64,000 bases of DNA from Desulfobulbaceae bacterium. GTDB taxonomy: Bacteria > Desulfobacterota > Desulfobulbia > Desulfobulbales > Desulfobulbaceae. Below are positions 1,079 to 14,779 of this stretch, one piece after another. Below the pieces are notes generated by a model that was not told where the DNA came from, did not search any database, and saw only the letters and a list, made by a program, of their open reading frames with translations. The stretch is taken from NCBI GenBank assembly GCA_011391865.1, contig JAABPV010000011.1, positions 1 through 64,000 of the forward strand. Direction: 5' to 3'. The translations under genes were made by a program, and so were the position numbers. Numbering within the stretch: the stretch's first letter is position 1; each line of letters opens with the position of its first letter.

Positions 1079-4000
1079 TTATTTGTACAGCCAGACGCGC
1101 ATCATTGATAGCAGGCGCTCAAGGTCGACTGGTTTAGCCAGATAGTCGCTGGCTCCGGCCTCAAGGCACTTTGTCCGATCCTCTTTCATCGCCTTGGCCG
1201 TGAGGGCGATCACCGGCAGGTCACTGAATTCCGGCTGCTCCCGTATCCTGCGGGTAGTCTCGTAGCCGTCCATTTCCGGCATCATGATGTCCATCAACAC
1301 CAAGTCCACCGATCCGGCCTCGGCCAGTGCCTTCAGGGCTTTCTTGCCGTCTTCAGCAACAAGCACCTGCAAGCCCTTGCCTTCGAGTATGCCGGACAGG
1401 GCGAAGATGTTGCGCATGTCGTCGTCCACCACCAGCACCCGCTTGCCTAAAAAGATACCTTCTTGGTCATACAGACCTGCCGCATCGCCTCCCTGTGGGC
1501 TGCTCGGCAGTCGCCGCGACCGGTTGAGGATGAGCGAGATTTCATCAAGGAGACGATCTTTGGAACGGGCATTCTTGATGATGATGGATTCCGCATACTT
1601 TCTCAGCTCCTGCTCATCCTCGCGGTTCAATTCTTTGTCAGAATAAATGATCACCGGCGGCACATTGAGGTTCTTCTCAGTGGCCAACCGCCGCAGCAGC
1701 TCAAGACCACTGCAATCAGGCAGTCCTAAATCTAATACCATGCAGTCAAAGCGCTGGCCGCGCAGCAGAGAATGAACCTCCTCGCCGGTCTTTGCCGCCT
1801 TAGCCACAGTGTCCTCGCTGCGGACAAGCTCAAGCAAAGCAGCCCGCAGCACGTCGTCATCCTCCACCACAAGCAGCCGCTTAATCCGGCTGGCGATGAC
1901 GGTCTCGAAATGGTTCAAGGCCTCGTCCAGCAAGGCCGGATCTTCTGGATTGACCAACACGCCTGCGGCTCCATGCCGCATCACCTCGGCGCAGTCCTCT
2001 GCCGGAGCAATGACATAGACCGGAATGCGCCTGGTTTTAGGATGAACTTTCAGATGCGTCAGGGCAGCCCACGCATCCATGGTTGGCAGGCGCATGTCCA
2101 GCATGATGCCCATCGGCTGATGCAGCTCGGCCAGCTCCAATCCCCGTTCTCCACTGGCAGCGGCCAGCAGCTTGAAGCCGCGCTCACGGCATTGCTCAAT
2201 CAGAAGCAAGGAAAGTTCAGGATCGTCCTCAATGATCAGCATCAGCCGCTCCATTTCGTTCGATGTCGCGTTCTCGCTCCTGACTGTCGGTACGGGCTGT
2301 GCCTGCGGCTCGGCTATAGGAGCAGTGCTTGCCGCGTCGTCCGACAGCAGCGCGTCCTTGTCCCGCAGTGGCAGATAGAGGGTGAAGACCGCGCCCTGTC
2401 CCGGCTCGCTGCGCAGATGAATCTCGCCGCCAAGCAACGTGGCCAGCTCTCTGGAAATCGACAGCCCTAAGCCTGTGCCGCCGTATTTGCGGGCGGTGGA
2501 GCCGTCTGCCTGCTGGAACGCCTCAAAGATGATGTCCTGCTTGTCCGGCGGAATGCCAATGCCGGTGTCGGCAACGCTGATTGCGATGCTCTCTTCAGGG
2601 ACAAGGCCCTTGGTGCGCAGCTCCGTGCCTGTGGGCGTTCTGGCGAAAGAAAGGGTGATGCTGCCCTGCTCGGTGAACTTGAGGCTGTTGCTGATGAAAT
2701 TCTTGATGATCTGCTCTAGCCGGGCGCGGTCGGAAGCAATGCTGGCTGGCAGTTCATGGGCAACAGAGACCTCGAATTGCAGCCCTTTGGCCGCCGCCAT
2801 GTGACGGAACATGGCTTTGGCGTTGTCGGCTACGTCGGCCAGCACCACTTCGGCCACATGCTTTGTCACCCGCCCGGCCTCAATTTTGGCTAAATCAAGA
2901 ATCTCGTCGATGAGGTTCAGCAATTCTTCGCCGGACTCGACAATGATGCCTGCCGCCTCCTGCTGGTTTTTGCTCAGATTGCCCTCTCGGTTACTGCTCA
3001 ACGAGCGGGCGAGCAGAAGCAGGCTGTTCATCGGTGTGCGCAGCTCATGGCTCATGTTGGCCAAGAACTCAGACTTGTATTTCGAGGCCAAAGACAAGGC
3101 CTTGGAGCGTTTCTCCAGCTCTTCCCGCACCTTGAGTAGCTCGGCGTTGCGCTGCTCTAACTGCTGCTTCTGCCCGGTCAGATCTTCGGATCTCCGCTCA
3201 AGAGAGGCATTGCTGATCTCCAGCTCGGCCTGCATCACTTGCAGCTCTTCGGCCTGCGACTCCAGCTTCTCGTTGTTGGTGCGCAGCTCCTCGGCCTGCC
3301 GCTGCGTCTCTTCCAGTAGCTCCTGCACTTGACGGCTCTGGGCTGTGGCAAAGGCAACAGCGACGCTCTCCAGCACATCGTCAAGAAAAGAAATTGCCGC
3401 GCCGGAAAAAGTCCGCAGCGAGGAGAACTCCAGCACCCCGGCGAGCTTGCCCTCATAGGTGAAGGGCGCGGCTAAAACGCAGCGCGGCGCAGTTTCACCT
3501 AAGGCGGAGCTGATTGGGATGTAGTCGTCCGGCAGATCAGACACAGTGATGATGCTCTGCTCGCGGGCCGCCTGTCCGGCAATGCCTTCGCCGAGTTTGA
3601 TCTGCGCGTTGAGCCGCTTGCGCCTGCTGAAGGCGTAGCTGCCGGTCAGAGTAAGATTCTCGCCGCGCTTGTCGGCAAGATAGAGCGCGGCGGCCTGTGC
3701 GCCCAGATGTTTCGACAAGCAGGCGGCGATGCTGTGAGCCAGCTCCTGCATGTCAATTTTGCCGCGCATTTGGCTGGCCAGCTCGGCCACGCCGGTTTTG
3801 TGCCAAAGGCTGACTGAGACCTTCTCCGCCATGTGGTCCAAGGCATCAGCCATCAGACCGATTTCATCCCGTCGCCGCATGTTCAGCCGCTGGCTGAAGT
3901 CGCCGGACGCAATGGCCTCAGCCACCCGCGCCGCGTTTTTGATCGGCCTGCTGATGGACCGGGCGATGTAAGAAGCAATCAAGGCCATCATGGCAATGGT

Positions 4001-5047
4001 GACGAGCAAGGCGGCAGAGCCGCACGTCACCATTTTCATTTCCGCCTCCGAGGTGGTGCCGTCCATCAATCCTCTGTCCTTCATGGCCTCGGCTTCGCCA
4101 ATTTCACAGACCAAGGCCCAGCGGGTATCGAAAACCTCCAGCGGACTCCACGACGACAGCACCCGGTTGCCGAGATAGTCATCAATGATTCCAGCACCGC
4201 TCTTGCCTGCCAAGGCGTTCCGCACAGCCTCGGTCGTCACCTTGTTGCCCTGCATGAAGGAGGCGGCGACGCTGTGATGGTTAGGATTGAGCAGCGAATC
4301 CGAGCGCATGTGGCTGTCCTGGCCGACCACATAAGATTCCAACGAATGCTCTTTCCCTAACGCGGTCTCCATGATACCGTTGATCAAATTCGGCGAAAGC
4401 TGAAAGGCCAAGTAGGCGATCACCATGTCCTTGTCTTTGACGCGGGTGATGAGAAAGGATGCCGGAGCGTTGCGCAGGGGCGGATAGGGGGCGAAATCAC
4501 CGAACTCCGTCTCTACGCCGGGATTGGCCCGCAGTTCGGTGAAAGCCTTGCCGAGCGGACTGCTCCGCAGCGGCTCGCGGTTCAGCGAAAGGCCGAGGTC
4601 AGCCCCTTTGTTCATGCTGTAAACGACATGGCCGGTGGTGCTGATCAAGAACATGTCCTGCCAGTCCAAGCTGAGGCAGACATCCCGAAACAGCGGGTCG
4701 TAGATTTTGGCGGCGTTCTGCCAAGAAACAGAGCTGGCCGAATTGTCGGCGGCGGTGAAGGATTGGTTGAAAGACTTCGCCGCCTCGGTCAGCCAAGGGC
4801 TGCTGTTGACCAAGTGCAGCTGCTTCTCCAAGGCCTTGAACGCGGCAAGCAGCTGTTTCTCCTTGATCGAACACATCATTTCTAGCTGCTCGTAAGCGGC
4901 CCGCTCCACTGCGTCCGCGCCTTGACTGCCCACGTGCCGCAGAGCCTTTGAGGAGATGAACCAAAAAATGCCGCTAATTGACAGCAAGGCTGCGACTCCC
5001 AGAAGTAGATGGGAGGCGATCAGTTTTGCGCTCAGTTTAATATTCAT
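1079..5047 (-). CDS. Hybrid sensor histidine kinase with HAMP, GAF and three receiver domains
   Basis: A 1,322-residue membrane kinase that should autophosphorylate on histidine and pass phosphate to its own receivers. In order it has an N-terminal membrane helix (about 8-30), a large periplasmic sensor region, a second helix (about 340-362), HAMP, a GAF domain (about 430-590), a long Glu/Gln-rich coiled coil, HisKA with the H-box SHELRTP (about 670-690), an HATPase with DTGIGIP and GGTGLGLS, then receivers starting near 935, 1058 and 1203. Each receiver keeps a phospho-acceptor-like Asp: LDMRLP, LDLGLP and MDIMMP. The first receiver lacks the usual Lys-Pro end, so it may be structural. It is followed by cheR and preceded by two REC-GGDEF genes on the same strand. 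The stimulus is not evident. Confidence 0.9.
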   Translation of the reverse strand: MNIKLSAKLIASHLLLGVAALLSISGIFWFISSKALRHVGSQGADAVERAAYEQLEMMCSIKEKQLLAAFKALEKQLHLVNSSPWLTEAAKSFNQSFTAADNSASSVSWQNAAKIYDPLFRDVCLSLDWQDMFLISTTGHVVYSMNKGADLGLSLNREPLRSSPLGKAFTELRANPGVETEFGDFAPYPPLRNAPASFLITRVKDKDMVIAYLAFQLSPNLINGIMETALGKEHSLESYVVGQDSHMRSDSLLNPNHHSVAASFMQGNKVTTEAVRNALAGKSGAGIIDDYLGNRVLSSWSPLEVFDTRWALVCEIGEAEAMKDRGLMDGTTSEAEMKMVTCGSAALLVTIAMMALIASYIARSISRPIKNAARVAEAIASGDFSQRLNMRRRDEIGLMADALDHMAEKVSVSLWHKTGVAELASQMRGKIDMQELAHSIAACLSKHLGAQAAALYLADKRGENLTLTGSYAFSRRKRLNAQIKLGEGIAGQAAREQSIITVSDLPDDYIPISSALGETAPRCVLAAPFTYEGKLAGVLEFSSLRTFSGAAISFLDDVLESVAVAFATAQSRQVQELLEETQRQAEELRTNNEKLESQAEELQVMQAELEISNASLERRSEDLTGQKQQLEQRNAELLKVREELEKRSKALSLASKYKSEFLANMSHELRTPMNSLLLLARSLSSNREGNLSKNQQEAAGIIVESGEELLNLIDEILDLAKIEAGRVTKHVAEVVLADVADNAKAMFRHMAAAKGLQFEVSVAHELPASIASDRARLEQIIKNFISNSLKFTEQGSITLSFARTPTGTELRTKGLVPEESIAISVADTGIGIPPDKQDIIFEAFQQADGSTARKYGGTGLGLSISRELATLLGGEIHLRSEPGQGAVFTLYLPLRDKDALLSDDAASTAPIAEPQAQPVPTVRSENATSNEMERLMLIIEDDPELSLLLIEQCRERGFKLLAAASGERGLELAELHQPMGIMLDMRLPTMDAWAALTHLKVHPKTRRIPVYVIAPAEDCAEVMRHGAAGVLVNPEDPALLDEALNHFETVIASRIKRLLVVEDDDVLRAALLELVRSEDTVAKAAKTGEEVHSLLRGQRFDCMVLDLGLPDCSGLELLRRLATEKNLNVPPVIIYSDKELNREDEQELRKYAESIIIKNARSKDRLLDEISLILNRSRRLPSSPQGGDAAGLYDQEGIFLGKRVLVVDDDMRNIFALSGILEGKGLQVLVAEDGKKALKALAEAGSVDLVLMDIMMPEMDGYETTRRIREQPEFSDLPVIALTAKAMKEDRTKCLEAGASDYLAKPVDLERLLSMMRVWLYK

Positions 5048-5071
5048 GCGAGGAGAGCGGGTCGCCGAATG

Positions 5072-6094
5072 TTATTGTAATGTCATGAGATTCAGCCGCT
5101 TCGCCAAGGCTGACGAGGCCGAGCTGCTGATCACTACCTTGTTTCTGCCGGTTTCCTTGGCATAGCGCAGGGCTTGGTCGGCGGAGTTGAGGATGTCCTC
5201 ACATTTTTTGGGACGATGCTTGATGTACGAGGCGATGCCGACACTGACGGTCACACGGATGGAATGCGACTGATTGATGAAATCTTTGACCAAACACAGC
5301 TTGCGCACTTTCTCCGCCGTGGCTGTCGCCTCGTCGAGATCAGATTTCGGCATCAGCAGAATAAATTTCTTGCAGCCGTAGCGGAAGGCAAAATCAACGC
5401 TCCTGATGCAGGACTGGAGCAGTCTGGCAAACTCCTGAATGACGTAATCGCCGAATTCATAGCCAAAAACATCATTCACGTTTTCAAAGCGGTCAAGATC
5501 AAAGATGACAACGGCAAGATCGCTGTTGGTCTTCCTGCATTTGTCAATCTCCTGCTGAATGATGTTCATCAGCGTCCGCCGGTTGTACAGGCCGGTCAGC
5601 TCGTCATGAACAGCTTGCTTCTCTAAAATTTCGTTCTGCTTCATCACCAACTGCTTGGTCTGCTCCAGCTCGATCACCAGCTCCCGCAGCTTCCGCTGCT
5701 GATGGTGCAGCTCAATGAAAAAATTTATTTTTCCGGCAAGAATGGCAGGCTGAAATGGTTTGGTGATGAAATCGACCGCCCCGGAATTGTAGCCCTTGAA
5801 GACATGATAGTTGTCTGAATATACCGCTGAAAGCAAAATTATCGGCAGTTTCTGGGTCTGCTCCCAGCCCCGGATGAGCTGAGACAGCTCGTAGCCGTCC
5901 ATCTCCGGCATCCGCACGTCCAGAATGGCCAAGGCGAAGTCATTGCCATGCCGCAGAATTTCTTTGAGCGCGTTGTTGCCGCTGGTGGCTTTGACAAATT
6001 CCGCGTCAATGTCCTTGAAAGTGGTTTCCAACGCGAAGAGATTTTTTGGATTGTCATCGACAATAAGTATTTTCGCCTTGTGTTTGCTCATCAT
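5072..6094 (-). CDS. REC-GGDEF protein with degenerate active site and intact c-di-GMP I-site
   Basis: This 340-residue response regulator has a receiver domain (about 7-125, acceptor Asp in LDVRMP near 59), a coiled linker (about 130-165) and a GGDEF domain (about 166-330). The signature that should read GG(D/E)EF is GCKKF (240-244), so catalytic and substrate-contact residues are lost. In the GHxxGD motif His is Tyr. In contrast, the inhibitory-site motif RxxD is present as RSVD (231-234), at the canonical five-residue spacing before the signature. From family knowledge I infer a phosphorylation-controlled c-di-GMP receptor rather than a cyclase. It is 24 bases upstream of the hybrid kinase and downstream of a paralogue with an intact active site. 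I chose the ATG at 6094; a second ATG follows directly. Confidence 0.88.
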   Translation of the reverse strand: MMSKHKAKILIVDDNPKNLFALETTFKDIDAEFVKATSGNNALKEILRHGNDFALAILDVRMPEMDGYELSQLIRGWEQTQKLPIILLSAVYSDNYHVFKGYNSGAVDFITKPFQPAILAGKINFFIELHHQQRKLRELVIELEQTKQLVMKQNEILEKQAVHDELTGLYNRRTLMNIIQQEIDKCRKTNSDLAVVIFDLDRFENVNDVFGYEFGDYVIQEFARLLQSCIRSVDFAFRYGCKKFILLMPKSDLDEATATAEKVRKLCLVKDFINQSHSIRVTVSVGIASYIKHRPKKCEDILNSADQALRYAKETGRNKVVISSSASSALAKRLNLMTLQ

Positions 6095-6237
6095 GCGTGC
6101 CGGATTGGATCAGAGTGGCTTGAGAGAGAAAATGCGCCGCCCGCGCAGCAGGTTGCGATGCTTGCAGCATCTTAGCATGGCAGGCGGTTTTCCGCAAAGC
6201 TGAATTTGCTCCAACTTTGAGCTGTGTCCGGCGCAAA

Positions 6238-7230
6238 TCAAATGGCGAACGAGGCTTCCGGCGCGGAGCCGCTGTAGACCGAGACCCGGTTTTTGCCGTT
6301 GTGCTTGGCGTGATAGAGGGCTGTGTCCGCATGGCGGATCATGTCGCGCTGCCGCCGGGGCGGATCATCTCGGTATGAGGCCACGCCGACGCTGACGGTC
6401 ATACTGATGGCATGAGGCAGGCTTTGGAAGAGCTTTTCCTCGCAGAGCCTGCGGATTTTTTCCGCTGTGGCCACAGCCCCGCGCAGGTCGGTCTGCGGCA
6501 GCAGGACGATGAACTCCTCGCCGCCGAAACGGAAGGCAAAGTCGGAATCGCTGATGCAGGAAAGGATGCGGGCAGCAAATTCTTTGATTACATAATCGCC
6601 GAAATCATGGCCGTAGGTGTCATTCACCTGCTTGAAATGGTCAAGATCGAAAATCAGCAGCGACAGATCGCCGCCGTCCTTGCGGCACCGGTCGGCCTCC
6701 CGCCGCAAGACTTTCGCCAGCTGGCGGCGGTTGTAGAGGCCGGTCAGCATGTCTTGGCTGGCCAGCTCCTCCAGCACCTTGTTCTGCTCCATCACCAAGG
6801 CTTTGGTCCGCTTCAGCTCCTTGATGATCTCTTTCAGTTTGAGCTGCTGATTGTAGATTTTGATGAAAAAGAGAATTTTTCCGGTCAGTGCCTCCGGCAT
6901 GAACGGTTTGGCGAGAAAATCAACTGCCCCGGCGTTGTAGCCCTTGAAAATGTGGTAATTGTCCGAATAGACGGCAGACAGGAAGATGATCGGCAGATCC
7001 TCGCAGCGCCGCTGGCTGCGGATGCGCCGGGCCAGCTCGTAGCCGTCCATTTCCGGCATGTTCACGTCTAAAATGGCGACGGCGAAATCGTGTTTCCGAA
7101 TCGCCTTGAGGGCCTCTTGGCCGCTGCTGGCCTCGACAATTTCGGCATCGATATTTTTGAGAAAAATTCTCAGAATGAACAGATTGCTCGGAACATCGTC
7201 AACTGCCAATATTTTGACTTTCTGCGCCAT
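6238..7230 (-). CDS. REC-GGDEF diguanylate cyclase
   Basis: This 330-residue response regulator should make cyclic di-GMP from two GTP when its receiver is phosphorylated. The receiver spans about residues 5-120 with acceptor Asp55 in LDVNMP and Lys near 108. A helical linker (about 125-158) leads to the GGDEF domain (about 160-325). The active-site signature is intact, GGEEF at 236-240, with FDLDHF and GHDFGD upstream. The inhibitory RxxD position reads SDSD (227-230), so the Arg needed for product inhibition is missing. It is clearly a paralogue of the next gene downstream, sharing the linker and the LSAVYSDNYH receiver segment. The pair and the hybrid kinase probably form one operon. Confidence 0.92.
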   Translation of the reverse strand: MAQKVKILAVDDVPSNLFILRIFLKNIDAEIVEASSGQEALKAIRKHDFAVAILDVNMPEMDGYELARRIRSQRRCEDLPIIFLSAVYSDNYHIFKGYNAGAVDFLAKPFMPEALTGKILFFIKIYNQQLKLKEIIKELKRTKALVMEQNKVLEELASQDMLTGLYNRRQLAKVLRREADRCRKDGGDLSLLIFDLDHFKQVNDTYGHDFGDYVIKEFAARILSCISDSDFAFRFGGEEFIVLLPQTDLRGAVATAEKIRRLCEEKLFQSLPHAISMTVSVGVASYRDDPPRRQRDMIRHADTALYHAKHNGKNRVSVYSGSAPEASFAI

Positions 7231-7328: not shown

Positions 7329-8342
7329 TCACCGGTCCCGGCTGAGGACATAGCCCGCCAAGCTGCGGAGCACTGTCACGCCGTCCTGCTGCCAGTCCTG
7401 ATCAAAGCAGGACAAGGCGGCCAACCCAGCCGCCATTTCCTCCTCCGCCCGCTGGCGGCTGTACGTGAAACTGCCCAGCCGCTCCATCAGCTGCCGCACA
7501 TAGGAGCAAGACGCGCTCAGACTGCGGCCCTCCTGCACGATCAGGAAAAGTTGGTCGTGTTCTTGATGGCCCGCCCTGCTCAGGGCGTGAATCAGGGGCA
7601 GGGTCATCTTGCCTTCAAGCAGGTCGTTGCAGGTCTTTTTACCGGTGGCCAGCTCGTCGCCGAGATAGTCGAGCAGGTCGTCGGCGATCTGAAAAGCCTG
7701 CCCGATTTTTTCGCCGTAGAGCACCAAGGCCGCAACATGATCCGGGCCGCCTTGGCCGTGCAGTGCGCCGACCGCGCAGGCCGCCCGGATCAGTCCTGCG
7801 GTTTTCTTGTCGACAATATCAAAATACTGCGCCTCTGTCACTGCCGGATTGGCGACGCGGCGCATCTGGAGGAATTCGCCGTCCGCCATGCCTGCCGCCG
7901 CCTCGCTGAAGATTTCCAAAGCCTGCGGCCCGGCCAGCGAGCCGATCAGGCGCATGGAGCGGGCGTGCAGCCAGTCGCCGGTGAGAATCGCCGCTGGCAG
8001 ACCGTAACGGCTGACCACCGATTCCTTGCCCCGGCGGCTGTCGGCGTGGTCAAGCACGTCGTCGTGAATCAGCGTGGCGGTGTGCAGATATTCAAAAGCG
8101 GCGGCGATCTGGCCGAGCGTCCGCTCCTCGCCCTTGCCGCAAAGCCGCGAGCAGAGGACGGTCAACAGAGGCCGCAGCCGCTTGCCGCCGGAAAGCAGGG
8201 CGTAACGCAGCACCTCGGCTAAAAGCGGGTCGCAGCCGCGCAGGATATCGGCAAGATCAGCGCGGATGACGGTCTCAATTTCGGCGGCGTTCTGGGCGAT
8301 CAGGGCAAACAGGGCGGCGGTTTCCGCTGCGGAGGGCTTCAT
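7329..8342 (-). CDS. ispB: Trans-polyprenyl diphosphate synthase (octaprenyl type)
   Basis: This 337-residue enzyme is a trans-isoprenyl diphosphate synthase, which condenses isopentenyl diphosphate onto an allylic diphosphate to make the side chain of respiratory quinones. The first aspartate-rich motif is DDVLD (94-98) after a conserved His, the second is DDLLD about 120 residues later, and the substrate motif GGKRLRP lies near 52. Length and motifs fit the IspB/HepT long-chain group better than FPP synthase, but chain length cannot be read with certainty. In a sulfate-reducer-like organism the product would serve menaquinone. It stands alone between the signalling block and the AT-rich island. 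Confidence 0.85.
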   Translation of the reverse strand: MKPSAAETAALFALIAQNAAEIETVIRADLADILRGCDPLLAEVLRYALLSGGKRLRPLLTVLCSRLCGKGEERTLGQIAAAFEYLHTATLIHDDVLDHADSRRGKESVVSRYGLPAAILTGDWLHARSMRLIGSLAGPQALEIFSEAAAGMADGEFLQMRRVANPAVTEAQYFDIVDKKTAGLIRAACAVGALHGQGGPDHVAALVLYGEKIGQAFQIADDLLDYLGDELATGKKTCNDLLEGKMTLPLIHALSRAGHQEHDQLFLIVQEGRSLSASCSYVRQLMERLGSFTYSRQRAEEEMAAGLAALSCFDQDWQQDGVTVLRSLAGYVLSRDR

Positions 8343-8426
8343 CTTTTATTTTCTGGCAATGTTGAAATTAAGCAGAATATTCATGAGCAAACCTGAATAG
8401 ATAAACTTTTGATATATTGAGAATAG

Positions 8427-8536
8427 GACTTACGCAGTTGAAACGAGAAATTCAACTATTACAGCAAGTTGTCTTTTTGCCGCATAAATCATCAGTTGAA
8501 TAAAATCAACGGGTTGGCAATCGAACTGCGTAACTC
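8427..8536. mobile_element. MITE-like element, 110 bp, with terminal inverted repeats and 4-bp target duplication
   Basis: The left end GACTTACGCAGTT (8427-8439) and the right end AACTGCGTAACTC (8524-8536) are inverted repeats matching at 12 of 13 positions. The element is flanked on both sides by ATAG (8423-8426 and 8537-8540), a perfect 4-bp direct repeat as expected for a target-site duplication. It has no coding capacity, so any movement would need a transposase from elsewhere. It ends 12 bases short of the stop codon of the SNF2-type helicase gene, at the border of the AT-rich island. Confidence 0.75.
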
Positions 8537-8548
8537 ATAGAGAATTGT

Positions 8549-11374
8549 TTAATTTGAACCTGAACAGTCAGAATACGCTGCGCCAATAAGTTGAAAATTG
8601 TCAGGATGTAAATCTATATTAGACACTTCGGATAATCTATTATTTATTTCCTTCTCAAGGAGAGAAAAATATTTTTGCGCTGTCTCTCTATCAAAAGAAA
8701 CTTTTCCGTCTTTAGCTGATATTTGCAGCCATTTTGAAAAAATATCTGCATTTGTCTCGACCACTCCATTTTTATCCGCAAGGAAAGAGAAATATTCCTG
8801 CCGCATACGGATTCCTTGATCATTCTGCCAGTACAAGATAGCTGTCAGCACCGCTGAAGAAAGTCCCTGCAACTTTGCCACTCGCCCGTCAAATTCATAT
8901 TTTTTTACATGATCGAGCATGTATCTAAAAAGATGAAAATTCATGTCCATCATATAGATATCCTTCCGCCTTGACGCTATACCACGATCTAATGTGATTT
9001 TTAGCTGTTGTCCCACTAACTGTAGCTCGTTCGACAGTTCTTGAGGAAGAAGTATCTTTATAACCTTTTCATCATGGCTTGTTTCAATTATTTTAATATC
9101 CAAAACAGGAATCATCCCCATGATAAAGGACTCGACATGACTCAATGCCATAGTTATTTCTCCTTTTGTTTCTTCAGGGAAATATCCTGATGCATATTCT
9201 AAAAGCTCACGTTGTTTTTCAACTGCATTTCGTGCTTTTTGTATGGCCTCATCAATTTCTTCTTTTGTATGCTCTACGGTGCTGTCTATCGATTTTTGCA
9301 AAATATCTTCTATATCAAGAGCGTCAACCAATCCTCCTATAATTTCCTCTTCCAAGCCTGGACGATACTCATCTCCAACAGCAGCCATATCTTTGATAAC
9401 TTGTTCAATACGCTGATATAACACACCAAGAATGTTTCCATCTATTGAATTTGTCACACTGAGATTGAAAACGACAACTTTGTCCTTTTGCCCATATCTG
9501 TAAAGACGGCCAACTCGCTGCACTAAACGCATAGGATTCCAAGGTAGGTCATAGTTGATCATAATATGACACTTTCTCTGGAGGTTTATACCCTCGCCGC
9601 CCGCCTCAGTTGATATAAGAAAACGACCATCTTCTTCAAAATATCGTATAGAATTATCTCTTTCTTGACGTGACATGCTGCCATGCAGCAATGACACAGA
9701 GTTTTCTCCGAATCTATTTTTCAATGCATGAGTAATATAGTCTTGGGTTCCTCTATACTCTGTGAAAATAAGTATTTTTTCCTTTTCATTGCTTTGTATA
9801 ATCTGAGAAATTATTTTATCGATCAATTCTTTCAATTTATTATCATTTTTAATGAGTTGAGCAGACTGCTCGATAAGTTCATCGAGTAGTTCTATTTCTC
9901 CTTCAAAAAATATTCCGGCAGCCTTGCGAGATTCTTCCCATTCTCCGCTAAACCGCTCATCGGCTGCAAGCTTATTTTCATTGAAAAACTTATCTTCTTT
10001 TTCATCATATTTTGTTAAACGATCTTTTCTGTTGACAAGAGAACGGTGAATAGCGGCGATGCTTGATGCGGCGAGCTTTCTGCAGGCAGCCATAACAAAA
10101 CCGATTGCTCTTCCGCGAAAATCACCGCTTGCGTTGCTGGCAGTGTAACCTTTTCGTAGATATTGTTGCAATTTTTTGTCAAAGTCTTTGTCTTCCGCAG
10201 AAGATGCCACCTGAACAGTGCTGGTTATTTTTCCTTGAAAAATAAATTGTCCATCAATATCTGTGACATGCGCTTTATTGTTGCGTATCACCATGTCACG
10301 AAGAATATGAGGATGCGAAGACAACAAGCGGATTTCTTCTTTCAGCTCAGGCCTGATCAATTCAAGCAGAGCCTGAAATTTATCAGGCTTACCTTGGTGC
10401 GGGGTAGCCGTCAGCAAAATCATGGAATCAGTCTTCCTTCGCAATGACGCTGCGAGACGAAATCTTTCTGAACTTTGATATTTCATGCCATACTGAACCC
10501 TGCTCAAGCGATGCGCTTCATCAAAAATAATAATATCCCATCCATCAGCTCTGTGTAGCATCTGCAAATAATGCTCATTTTTCATCCTGTCTATAGAGCC
10601 GATGACAAAATTAAACATTTTCCAGTGTCTTTCTTCGGTTATATGAAAATCATCTCCATATACCTGAAAATCGCTGAGGCCAAATTTATGATGCAGCTCT
10701 TCTTTCCACTGATTGACCAAACCAGCAGGCGTGACAAGCAGAACACGGCGGACTGTTCCACGACGCAAGAGCGCAGACAGAAGCATTCCAACTTCAATAG
10801 TTTTACCGAGACCAACATCATCGGCAATCATCCAATTTAAATTTCCAGAGGCAAGTATATGATGCACTAAATGAATCTGATGCGGCAGCGGATCAATATT
10901 GAGATGAGACAATGCCCCTGTATTTTCATGCCACATCTCAATGGCATAGGCTAAATTTTTCAGCCTGAATTTTTCAGCATTGCCAGCTTCTCCTGTTTGT
11001 TGCAATTCAAAACGAGACCGCACTCCTTTAATTTGTTTTAAATTCTCAAAAGGAAGCCACCAGCGTTCTCCTCGTACCCGAAATTCAACAAGAACCTGAT
11101 CTCTCTTGCCTATTCTTCTGTTTTCAAGCACAACCCCTTCACCAAGAGATGGCCGTATGCGTGATCTTGGAATATCCTGCACCTCCATGCCAATGCGAAA
11201 ACCGCTGCGGAGCAGTTCAATTGAAATATTTTCATACTTATGGCTTTTCAGCCATTCAACCCTGCATCTTTTTATCCCGTTTACAACGGGATGTTCTCTG
11301 ACAATGCCGTATTCGTCATTTCCATCTTTTTTTACCCAGCAGCCGACAACTGGAGTTAACTTGTCGAGTTTCAT
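8549..11374 (-). CDS. SNF2/RapA-like DEAD/DEAH-box helicase
   Basis: A 941-residue superfamily 2 ATPase of the SNF2/HepA type, expected to translocate on double-stranded DNA and remodel bound proteins. An N-terminal region of about 130 residues looks like small beta-barrel repeats. The helicase motifs follow: Walker A DDVGLGKT (185-192), the DEAH box in FDEAHRLS (near 285), TATPHQG, then in the second lobe STEAGGEGINLQ and QRVGRLYRYGQ. These resemble RapA and the DrmD/DpdE-type helicases of defence systems. About 300 C-terminal residues are helical, with no nuclease motif that I recognise. The start is supported by GAGGTG upstream. It lies 12 bases after an unknown 397-aa gene, and both are far more AT-rich than their neighbours, suggesting transfer. 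A role in phage defence is an inference. Confidence 0.85.
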   Translation of the reverse strand: MKLDKLTPVVGCWVKKDGNDEYGIVREHPVVNGIKRCRVEWLKSHKYENISIELLRSGFRIGMEVQDIPRSRIRPSLGEGVVLENRRIGKRDQVLVEFRVRGERWWLPFENLKQIKGVRSRFELQQTGEAGNAEKFRLKNLAYAIEMWHENTGALSHLNIDPLPHQIHLVHHILASGNLNWMIADDVGLGKTIEVGMLLSALLRRGTVRRVLLVTPAGLVNQWKEELHHKFGLSDFQVYGDDFHITEERHWKMFNFVIGSIDRMKNEHYLQMLHRADGWDIIIFDEAHRLSRVQYGMKYQSSERFRLAASLRRKTDSMILLTATPHQGKPDKFQALLELIRPELKEEIRLLSSHPHILRDMVIRNNKAHVTDIDGQFIFQGKITSTVQVASSAEDKDFDKKLQQYLRKGYTASNASGDFRGRAIGFVMAACRKLAASSIAAIHRSLVNRKDRLTKYDEKEDKFFNENKLAADERFSGEWEESRKAAGIFFEGEIELLDELIEQSAQLIKNDNKLKELIDKIISQIIQSNEKEKILIFTEYRGTQDYITHALKNRFGENSVSLLHGSMSRQERDNSIRYFEEDGRFLISTEAGGEGINLQRKCHIMINYDLPWNPMRLVQRVGRLYRYGQKDKVVVFNLSVTNSIDGNILGVLYQRIEQVIKDMAAVGDEYRPGLEEEIIGGLVDALDIEDILQKSIDSTVEHTKEEIDEAIQKARNAVEKQRELLEYASGYFPEETKGEITMALSHVESFIMGMIPVLDIKIIETSHDEKVIKILLPQELSNELQLVGQQLKITLDRGIASRRKDIYMMDMNFHLFRYMLDHVKKYEFDGRVAKLQGLSSAVLTAILYWQNDQGIRMRQEYFSFLADKNGVVETNADIFSKWLQISAKDGKVSFDRETAQKYFSLLEKEINNRLSEVSNIDLHPDNFQLIGAAYSDCSGSN

Positions 11375-11386
11375 CGCAATAGCACC

Positions 11387-12580
11387 TCAGTCGAATAGAT
11401 TTTCTACGGAACGAATGAATTTTAATGTCTTGCCTAAATATTCCTGATGAAAAACTGGAATATCTACAGAGCTTGGAGGGAAAAAATATTCATCTGGCAT
11501 ATCGTGTTGATTGGTCAAAATAGATGCCCAACCAAATTCATTATCCCAGCTATGGAGGCAGGTAATGAAATATTTATTGAAACTGGAGAACACATTTCTC
11601 TGGTAATCGCTGAAATACCAATGCTTATAAAGAGCGATTAAAAAATGTTCAGCTTCTTCCGGGCTTGGACATTCAGAAAATTTCCTTATGAACTTAATAG
11701 CAGTTGGCCAGCTAAGTATTCGATAATTTGATTTCTGTCCGCTATAAAATTCTGAATGTTCTTTCCATATTTCTTTTATATTCGCCGCTGATTCAATTTC
11801 ATAAATTGTTGCACCATTTTCTAATTCTCTGATCAGTGCTTCCTTGCAAGCACCCCATCCGTTGGATATAAAAATTCTTGAAATAATTTCAAGATCACAT
11901 GATTCAAGATCAAGTTTTATAGAAAGTTCAACGGCTTCTTGCGTTGCCCGTTCCTCCCGGCTCATCTTGCCGGAAATATCCACATCTTCGTATTCAGCTT
12001 CATAGTACTGATCATACTCACCAATATCAGCAGATAAACCGATGAAATCATATTCATCGTACGACACTACATCCTTTTCATTTACTTCTGTATATAAAAT
12101 ATAATCAAGATTGTTGTCTTGGCATTCTATTTTTTCAATATCGAGAAAACCACTGCCTTTTTCTGAAATATCTTCTTTTATTTCATCACGAAAATCATAA
12201 CTATCAGATATATCTTTATTTTCTTTTTGAAATATCCATTCTAAATCAATATCTGAAAAATATTTATTTCTCCTGCGTTTTGTATCTAACGTTTCAATGC
12301 AATCATGCCTTTCTGAGTTTAACAATGATAAGTAATTAAAATTAATATATTTTACCGCTTTCGTAGAAGTGGTGTCCGTTTTTTTAGGGCGAGCTAATAT
12401 ATTATTGTTTATATAAGATAAATAATCTGTACAGTTGTTTGGGAAAAATCTGAACGAAACAAATGAGCATAAATTTGAATTTAAAAATATTTTTTGTAGA
12501 TTATTTTTATAATCTTTTTGGTAGAAAGGAAAAACTAAACTGGCTGAATATACCGATAGTATCGTTTTTTGTTCGACCAT
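11387..12580 (-). CDS. Unrecognised 397-aa protein, partner of the SNF2-type helicase
   Basis: I do not recognise this family. The N-terminal 90 residues are rich in Phe, Asn and Ser. The middle (about 110-215) is strongly acidic, with runs of Asp, Glu and Tyr. The C-terminal half (about 215-397) looks like a compact helical domain rich in Trp, Tyr and Cys. No membrane segment, signal peptide or nuclease motif is evident. The acidic centre could mimic DNA or bind a basic partner, but that is speculation. The gene overlaps the 67-aa gene before it by 46 bases and is 12 bases from the helicase, so the three are probably one operon. It is the most AT-rich part of the window; positions 12181-12240 have only 13 G or C. 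Confidence 0.7.
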   Translation of the reverse strand: MVEQKTILSVYSASLVFPFYQKDYKNNLQKIFLNSNLCSFVSFRFFPNNCTDYLSYINNNILARPKKTDTTSTKAVKYINFNYLSLLNSERHDCIETLDTKRRRNKYFSDIDLEWIFQKENKDISDSYDFRDEIKEDISEKGSGFLDIEKIECQDNNLDYILYTEVNEKDVVSYDEYDFIGLSADIGEYDQYYEAEYEDVDISGKMSREERATQEAVELSIKLDLESCDLEIISRIFISNGWGACKEALIRELENGATIYEIESAANIKEIWKEHSEFYSGQKSNYRILSWPTAIKFIRKFSECPSPEEAEHFLIALYKHWYFSDYQRNVFSSFNKYFITCLHSWDNEFGWASILTNQHDMPDEYFFPPSSVDIPVFHQEYLGKTLKFIRSVENLFD

Positions 12581-12738
12581 TTTGATTTTTCTTTAGCTGT
12601 TTCGTTACCGATTTCATCATCGTAAGAAAAATATCGTCTCGCTTTTAGTGCCATCTCTTCAGATGAGATGTAATAATCTAGCTCATCTTTTGTAACGTGT
12701 TCACAATAATCTGTTGTTGCTCTATCAAATGGCTTCAT
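12535..12738 (-). CDS. Small hypothetical protein (67 aa) at the head of the helicase island
   Basis: A 67-residue charged protein of unknown function, rich in Lys, Tyr, Asp and Glu and without a membrane segment. Its ATG at 12738 has only a weak ribosome binding site (AAGGG, about 7 bases upstream). It overlaps the following 397-aa gene by 46 bases in a different frame and shares its AT-rich composition, which supports it as a real, translationally linked first gene. It could be a regulator or a small partner protein, but no motif shows this. Coding status is moderately certain. Confidence 0.5.
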   Translation of the reverse strand: MKPFDRATTDYCEHVTKDELDYYISSEEMALKARRYFSYDDEIGNETAKEKSKWSNKKRYYRYIQPV

Positions 12739-12777
12739 AATTCGCCCTTGGCTGGGTATAATTGAATTTAGCTGAAA

Positions 12778-14721
12778 TCATGGAGCAAAAAAACGCTCCA
12801 CGTCCCGTAAATTCCGGGTCAGAGGCGAGGGCGGCAGATTGGCGATAAACCTGCTGCCGTAAGGTTTGGTGAAGAGGCGCACGTCAAGAACAGCAGCCAC
12901 GCCCCGGTCTCCGGCCCGGCGCATCAGGCGGCCCACGCCCTGCCGCAGACTGAGAATGGCCCTCGGCACCTGAAATTCAAAAAAAGGATTGCCGCCAGCG
13001 ATCTTGATCCGCTCAATCCGGGCCAGCAGCACCGGATCTGTCGGCACCTCGAAAGGCAGTTTGTCAATGATCACCATGCTCAAAGATTCTCCCGGCACAT
13101 CAACGCCTTCCCAGAAGCTGGCCACGGCTAAGAGCACCGAATCGGTCTCCTCGGCGAAACGCTTGAGCAGGAGCTGGCGAGAGGCCGCGCCTTGACGAAG
13201 CAGGGTATAAGGCAGCGCGTCGCGCAGATTGTGCCAAGCCTGCTCAAGGGCCTGAAAGGAGGTGAAAAGCACTAAGGCGCGCCCGCGCGAGCAGATGAGC
13301 AGCTTTCTCAGCTCCTGATGCAGCCGCTCGCGATGGCCAGGGGCGTTGGGTTCAGGAAAACTGCTGTCCGGAACATAAAGCAGCGTCCGGCTTTTATAGT
13401 CAAAAGGTGAAGGAAAAACAAAGGACGGGCTGTCTTCCGGTAGGCCAAGCCGCTGGCGGAAATAGCCCGCGCTCAGGGTCGCCGAGGTGAAGACGCAGTG
13501 CCGCATCTGGGCGAAGAGCGTTTTTTGCAGATCAGCCGCCACATCAATCGGCGTAGCCGCGAGGCTCAAATTTTTCTCGCTCCGCTCAAACCAATGCACG
13601 TGGCTATTTTGCTGAAAGGCAGACTGAATGGTGATTCGCTCCAGACTTTCGCCCAGTTCCTCGCAGCGCGGCAGGAGCTGCTTCCACGGGCCGTCGTCGT
13701 TTTTTGCGCCGGTCAGTTCCAGCTGGTCGGCCAGCGCATGAAACGCAGCCAGCAGCGCGTCGTTGAGCGGCTTGAGCGCAGGAAAAAAATCAATCAGGGG
13801 AAAACGACCTTTGGCGGATGGAAAGAGGCTGAAAAAGCGTTCGCCGATGCCGGTCAGATAGTCAAAGGCGGCGAAAAGTTTTTTATGCTTCCGCTTGCCG
13901 CCGCTGTCCTTCGCGGCTTTTTCGACATCAGCGATCAAATCCAGTAGCTGGTAGCGCGAAAAGGACAGGCCGAAGAACTGGGCGGCAATGTCCTCCAGAT
14001 GATGCGCCTCGTCAAAAATGACGCTCTCGCAGCGGGGCAGCACCTCGCCGAAGCCGCTGCGACGCAGAGCCAGATCAGAAAAAAGCAGGTGATGATTGAC
14101 GACCAATATCTGGCAGGCGGCGGCCTCGCGCCGGACTTTGTTCAGATAGCAGCGGCTGTGGTCAGGGCAGTCTGAGCCGAGGCAGAAATGGGTCTGGCAG
14201 CAAATTTTTTGCCAGAGCGGCGAGCTGCCGGAAAGGCCGGGCAGCTCGGCCCGGTCGGCGAAAACGGTTTTTTTCAGCCAGGCGTGGAGCTTGGCTGTGG
14301 AAACGCCGCCGCTGTCTTCAGCGGAGAACAGCTCCAGTTGGCCGCCTGCGGTGAGCTGATGCCAGCGGTGCAGGCAAAGGTAATTCTGGCGGCCCTTGAC
14401 GCACATTGCCTTCAGCTCTGGGGCGAGGTGCTCGCGGATGAAGGGAATTTCGCGGCTGAGAATCTGATCCTGCAAATTGCGGGTGTTGGTAGAAATCAGC
14501 GTTTTCCGCCCGCTGAAAACCGCCGGAACCAGATAGGCCAGCGTCTTGCCCAAACCGGTCTCGGCCTCCACCAGTAGGCAGGCCGCAGGCGGGCCGTCCT
14601 GCCGCGCCAGCAGCTCCGCCACTGCTTCAGCCATCCGCTGCTGGCCGGGCCGGGCCTCATGTTCCGGCAGGTGCCGGGCCAGCGCGCCCGCTGGGCTAAA
14701 AATGTCGTTCATCTGCTCCAT
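12778..14721 (-). CDS. dinG: DinG/XPD-type iron-sulfur DNA helicase
   Basis: A superfamily 2 helicase of the DinG/YoaA group, which unwinds DNA 5' to 3' and helps resolve R-loops and damaged forks. About 647 residues. Walker A is in EAETGLGKTLAYL, the four-cysteine iron-sulfur patch is made by Cys residues from CVKGRQNYLC through CLGSDCPDHSRC, and the DEAH box is in FDEAHHLED. The C-terminal lobe has FWEGVDVPGE and RQGVGRLMRR. I place the start at 14721 because AAGGAG precedes it by 12 bases and because an upstream ATG at 14754 falls inside the predicted -10 box. An ATG three codons further in is also possible. A 3'-5' exonuclease domain, found in some DinG proteins, is absent. Confidence 0.87.
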   Translation of the reverse strand: MEQMNDIFSPAGALARHLPEHEARPGQQRMAEAVAELLARQDGPPAACLLVEAETGLGKTLAYLVPAVFSGRKTLISTNTRNLQDQILSREIPFIREHLAPELKAMCVKGRQNYLCLHRWHQLTAGGQLELFSAEDSGGVSTAKLHAWLKKTVFADRAELPGLSGSSPLWQKICCQTHFCLGSDCPDHSRCYLNKVRREAAACQILVVNHHLLFSDLALRRSGFGEVLPRCESVIFDEAHHLEDIAAQFFGLSFSRYQLLDLIADVEKAAKDSGGKRKHKKLFAAFDYLTGIGERFFSLFPSAKGRFPLIDFFPALKPLNDALLAAFHALADQLELTGAKNDDGPWKQLLPRCEELGESLERITIQSAFQQNSHVHWFERSEKNLSLAATPIDVAADLQKTLFAQMRHCVFTSATLSAGYFRQRLGLPEDSPSFVFPSPFDYKSRTLLYVPDSSFPEPNAPGHRERLHQELRKLLICSRGRALVLFTSFQALEQAWHNLRDALPYTLLRQGAASRQLLLKRFAEETDSVLLAVASFWEGVDVPGESLSMVIIDKLPFEVPTDPVLLARIERIKIAGGNPFFEFQVPRAILSLRQGVGRLMRRAGDRGVAAVLDVRLFTKPYGSRFIANLPPSPLTRNLRDVERFFAP

Positions 14722-14749
14722 AGGCTTTTCGCTCTCCTTAAAAGCTGTC

Positions 14750-14779
14750 AGCATAGCGTTGACGTTTTTCGGTTGTCAA
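14750..14779 (-). promoter_or_regulatory. Predicted sigma70 promoter of the dinG-type gene
   Basis: On the minus strand TTGACA (14779-14774) is separated by 18 bases from TATGCT (14755-14750). Its -35 box overlaps the -35 box of the divergent promoter for the kinase gene on the plus strand. Transcription from here would begin downstream of the ATG at 14754, which argues for the shorter protein start. Confidence 0.55.

Follow-up and report, generated by a model that had tools for sequence, protein, structure and literature searches.

An obligately paired RapA-type helicase and undescribed partner family resident in bacterial defence islands: a probable two-gene defence module

Introduction

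RapA, BrxHII and BR helicases have a common layout (PMC12839542), and RapA-like motors occur in BREX-3, BR/Hma and ARMADA (PMC12839542, PMC12458937). In BREX, DISARM, Hma/BR and ARMADA, RapA-type motors always belong to multi-gene systems with a methyltransferase, so that the role of the motor is hard to isolate. The question raised by the locus studied here is whether an AT-rich island with a helicase gene of this type, in a 64,000-nucleotide stretch of Desulfobulbaceae DNA (hereafter the window), is a self-contained defence module, and how it relates to these systems.

Results

Island and insertion site

The island (positions 8,549-12,738) had ~32-43% GC vs 51-67% elsewhere in the window (1-kb bins), and no second 1-kb bin of the window was comparably AT-rich. 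The GC fraction was 0.37-0.43 over the helicase gene and 0.32 over the gene of its 397-aa partner. The preliminary description of this DNA had placed three ORFs on one strand, more AT-rich than their flanks; the coordinates were exact and the GC contrast held across the window. The features were:

8549..11374, minus strand: RapA-type Swi2/Snf2 helicase/translocase ORF, 941 aa (Pfam, nearest structure RapA, full-length relatives)
11387..12580, minus strand: partner (putative adaptor) ORF, 397 aa (followed immediately by the family helicase in all relatives with sequence)
11432..12019, minus strand: conserved, all-helical C-terminal domain of the partner (profile match, AlphaFold2)
12013..12283, minus strand: acidic linker of the partner (31% D/E in the 80 aa preceding the domain)
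12535..12738, minus strand: 67-aa ORF, possibly a displaced N-terminal part of the partner (codon-position GC, weak match to the Nitrosococcus partner)
8343..12777, no strand: inserted stretch (flanking genes near-contiguous in related genomes)
8423..8540, no strand: MITE-like element, 118 bp (further matches in its own genome)

The helicase started 12 nt past the partner stop codon. The flanking genes encoded a polyprenyl synthetase (7329-8342) and a yoaA-type (DinG/YoaA-type) helicase (12778-14754). In G003, a genome from the same genus, the site was empty, with 51 bp between the two orthologues; the orthologues were likewise adjacent in the four genomes G005, G009, G011 and G020, which belong to other genera of the family. 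The 4.4-kb stretch between the flanking genes is therefore an insertion, and the horizontal acquisition of a compact module proposed earlier was borne out by the empty site. The MITE-like element, with terminal inverted repeats TTACGCAGTT...AACTGCGTAA, was at the downstream edge of the insert. Elsewhere in the same genome there were 27 further full or partial matches, of which about 13 spanned nearly the whole element. It is external to the two-gene module, and its place at the insert edge may be incidental. Other defence genes were absent beside the window copy of the pair. The minus strand at 1079-7230 encoded a hybrid sensor kinase (1322 aa, several receiver domains), then two paralogous receiver-GGDEF proteins.

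Helicase

The 941-aa helicase consisted of an N-terminal part of ~120 aa, a complete SNF2 core (about aa 160-660; Pfam SNF2-rel_dom and Helicase_C) and a RapA-like C-terminal region. RapA was the closest solved structure both by sequence and by fold of the predicted aa 652-941, and was the sole PDB match by fold of this C-terminal region (model of moderate confidence, pTM 0.60). With this core and C-terminal region the protein belonged to the RapA-type Swi2/Snf2 superfamily, and the SNF2/RapA-type assignment of the preliminary description stood. Its library matches (DrmD, BrxH and HmaA models) were all far under the scores of true members. The best NCBIfam match was DrmD (E = 1e-100; 338.4 bits vs a curated cutoff of 610), NCBIfam RapA scored 192.8 bits (cutoff 576), and the HmaA model gave 304 bits with the window helicase vs 1379 bits with the true HmaA in locus L058.

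When 84,980 genomes were scanned with a helicase segment specific to the family, 48 loci were returned, 46 of them in the helicase family, and a tblastn search of plasmids with the helicase returned three nearly full-length relatives (42-51% identity), all three with the partner upstream. Full-length relatives were 42-65% identical to the window protein. Loci with the pair were from Pseudomonadota, Thermodesulfobacteriota, Deinococcota, Gemmatimonadota and Latescibacterota, and the pair has moved horizontally among distant bacteria. Most copies were on chromosomal or unassigned contigs, and no prophage or viral-contig relatives were found. The same two genes were in the same order in about 50 genomes, which excludes the island as a product of chance. 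At locus L044 (8981-11844) the family helicase was split in two overlapping ORFs (frameshift or assembly error), and a downstream methyltransferase was likewise split.

In a maximum-likelihood tree (quick method; long outgroup branches), 48 family helicases were on one side of a branch (SH-aLRT 100), apart from the BR/Hma, DrmD-like, RapA and BrxHII sequences; the HmaA-type helicases of L019-L021 were also outside the family. Nearest to the window helicase were two deltaproteobacterial sequences. Two helicases added after the tree, G114 from the order of the window organism and G076 from its family, were 65% and 60% identical to it. The helicase was thus not the standard RapA in housekeeping contexts that would have spoken against a defence reading (192.8 vs 576 bits; family monophyletic).

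Partner protein and obligate pairing

The 397-aa partner had no Pfam, NCBIfam or PADLOC match, and its only PHROG match was at E = 0.14; together with the 31% D/E preceding its conserved domain, this agrees with the earlier account of an acidic protein without a known motif. The 397-aa protein is too variable in sequence for direct scans of the collections, which returned no relatives; the helicase-based route succeeded. The conserved C-terminal domain (~160 aa, all-helical) of the window partner matched the family profile at 177 bits (E = 1e-52). Structure prediction gave a confident helical fold (AlphaFold2; 130 residues at pLDDT ≥ 90), and a fold search against PDB and BFVD gave no match below E = 0.2. 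The few invariant residues of the domain were alanine, tryptophan and phenylalanine, and for this reason its sequence suggests a structural or binding role rather than catalysis.

The N-terminal part of the partner ranged from under 200 to over 1,100 aa among relatives, with a TPR-like unit in 26 of 44 partners and an acidic linker in most (mean 35% D/E). In many partners (L022-L052) the TPR unit was followed by a recurrent short segment, F-[ST]-x-x-D-x-x-[YF]-[ILV] and then an acidic stretch, which may be a binding motif. The acidic linker of the window partner contained FSDIDLEWIF...DEI, which resembles an N-terminal segment that recurs in the family.

Pairing was obligate. The partner domain was directly upstream of a family helicase at every locus with enough sequence, the window pair included; loci outside this rule were L064 (contig edge), L037 (truncated helicase), and L068 and L069 (two distant non-family loci). 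The two genes were -60 to +100 nt apart in 45 of 47 pairs, and overlapped in 21. The domain was absent from the other SNF2 loci examined, including the HmaA-type L019-L021, and from the RapA locus of E. coli. Among 258 genomes of the class it was present in three places, each with the helicase alongside, and it was never found without a family helicase. Within-family distances of partner and helicase were correlated (r = 0.84; Mantel p = 0.0005).

The 67-aa ORF

The preliminary description had read the island as a three-gene unit, and in this it did not hold: the conserved unit was the helicase and the 397-aa partner only. The 67-aa protein was rejected as a third conserved component, as it was not conserved as a separate gene in relatives, which encode the partner as one uninterrupted ORF. 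The 67-aa ORF overlapped the partner ORF by 46 nt in a different frame. Codon-position GC was coding-like in the 67-aa ORF and not in the first ~100 codons of the 397-aa ORF, which are nonetheless open. The 67-aa segment HVTKDELDYY...YFSYDDEI weakly matched aa 87-114 of the Nitrosococcus partner (E = 0.25); similar segments were present after the TPR unit or at the protein start of other partners, a match not significant alone. The best window in motif scoring of the 67-aa protein differed from the expected segment, and its match to the partner of G076 (same family) was insignificant. The 67-aa ORF may be a displaced piece of the partner N-terminus, and most likely the partner gene in the window has a broken or misassembled N-terminal end. 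Any claim of function for the window copy is weaker on this account. Programmed frameshifting at an A6 run in the overlap of the two ORFs was considered and seems less likely than a damaged or misassembled start, as the site is no canonical slippery heptamer.

Genomic neighbourhood

The pair usually resided in defence islands, in line with the candidate defence module of the preliminary description: about 30 of 49 relatives had defence genes (RM, BREX, Gabija, Mza, Hma or similar) within 10 kb, a raw tally that rests partly on cluster membership, one representative per cluster being scanned. L061 and L062 (GH32 gene) and L033 (TonB receptor) had non-defence contexts. Type III-like MTase and Res genes were beside 10 loci, co-oriented and close in, for example, L030, L031, L036 and L026. 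Type I RM was beside five loci, plus G076 of the window organism's own family, and type IIG beside three. BREX genes were present at L028 and L043 only, among the relatives checked. Neighbours at single loci were MzaB/C (L029), HmaA (L058), GajA (L053) and Dsr1 (L016); further single-copy neighbours were an Hhe-like gene, a DruE-like gene, NERD/UvrD and GajB-like genes. Downstream of the module at L024, L041 and L045 was a further pair, made up of a second, DrmD-like SNF2 helicase and a type IIG restriction-methylase. Loci L061 and L062 (Latescibacterota and Gemmatimonadota MAGs) were the most alike of the distant copies, with a common GH32 glycosidase neighbourhood; their MAG assignments may be doubtful.

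Discussion

Function and proposed mechanism

Read from its genomic context, the pair is probably a horizontally transferred two-gene defence module, possibly accessory to RM or BREX loci. Neither the helicase nor the partner had a recognisable nuclease or methyltransferase domain; in the simplest models, therefore, the pair would displace or remodel proteins on foreign DNA, either unaided or in support of neighbouring nucleases. Physical interaction, DNA translocation, the target and an anti-phage effect are put forward by analogy with RapA-type enzymes and from the gene neighbours. The first gene would encode an adaptor that binds the motor through its C-terminal helical domain, and whose TPR or disordered acidic N-terminus may regulate the motor or recruit another factor. 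The second would encode a RapA-type Swi2/Snf2 dsDNA translocase steered by this dedicated adaptor. The motor would load on invading DNA, translocate, and strip or remodel bound proteins (RNA polymerase, replication or anti-restriction proteins), upon which phage gene expression or replication would fail and neighbouring nucleases would gain access. The neighbouring systems, or the host, would have to provide the cleavage step and the marking of self and non-self.

A wider proposal, made tentatively, is that the pair represents an undescribed and widespread immune system of two components: a dsDNA translocase without a nuclease, guided by a new adaptor family whose N-termini can be exchanged (TPR, coiled-coil or disordered), would strip or remodel protein-DNA complexes, and so stop phages, instead of cutting DNA.

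Alternative explanations

The co-oriented, close type III-like MTase/Res genes in about ten loci, the type I RM adjoining the G076 copy in the host's family and the BREX genes adjoining L028 and L043 would also fit a strict accessory of RM or BREX operons, inert alone, whose motor counters anti-restriction proteins or helps the nuclease. This seems unlikely: the neighbours are of many unrelated kinds, with none at all in the window and at L061 and L062, and a stand-alone unit gathering in islands fits mixed neighbours equally well.

A reading outside defence is less probable still: the helicase would be a diverged, RapA-like protein that remodels RNA polymerase, with the partner as its regulator, in stress or mobile-element transcription. 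The helicase resembles RapA in its whole architecture, and RapA is the one PDB match to its C-terminal region, but the RapA score is far under the curated cutoff, the distribution is sporadic (3 of 258 genomes of the class), the pair resides in defence islands, and RapA is without such a partner gene. A selfish role, or one in plasmid maintenance (replication, partition or addiction), on mobile DNA, which would suit the three plasmid-borne copies, is very improbable, as most copies are chromosomal or unassigned and without conserved replication genes, and neither protein has a toxin-like part.

Comparison with known systems

Assignment to DISARM, BREX, Hma/BR, ARMADA or RapA was rejected in each case (core neighbours missing and/or score under cutoff), as expected from the initial view that no named system is matched. 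The window helicase shares with DrmD of class 1 DISARM the SNF2 core, a similar size and the best NCBIfam match; it differs in scoring under the DrmD cutoff and in having its own dedicated partner, with a domain absent from PADLOC. The DISARM genes DrmA, DrmB, DrmC and DrmMI were absent beside the window pair, and no Drm core match was obtained for the partner or the flanking gene tested.

Likeness to BrxHII of type 3 BREX and to the DUF499-centred BR/Hma helicases is in the homologous core and the RapA-like layout of Tudor, Swi2/Snf2 and alpha+beta C-terminal parts (PMC12839542). BrxHII and the BR/Hma helicases are accompanied by an AAA+ ATPase and an N6-methyltransferase, whereas the window motor is accompanied by a helical putative adaptor and is in a separate clade. 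The type 3 BREX core (BrxC, PglX and PglZ) was absent beside the window pair, and a DUF499 ATPase and N6-MTase were not adjacent to it. RapA (HepA) is the closest solved structure by sequence and by C-terminal-region fold; the window helicase differs in its score under the cutoff and its long separate branch, and RapA has no partner in E. coli. ARMADA has a BrxHII/RapA-like helicase, ArmA (PMC12458937), but its further components, a PglX-like methyltransferase and a YprA-like helicase, are both absent beside the window pair.

The pair was undescribed in the open-licence literature searched (main texts), and may be listed unnamed elsewhere. Pfam, NCBIfam and PADLOC have no entry for the putative adaptor family, which would therefore be missed by annotation pipelines built on them. 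The pair represents a further form of the RapA-type defence helicase theme, combined with this undescribed family. If the proposed function is true, the immune role of the motor could be probed in no smaller setting than these two genes, which encode no nuclease, methyltransferase or AAA+ ATPase.
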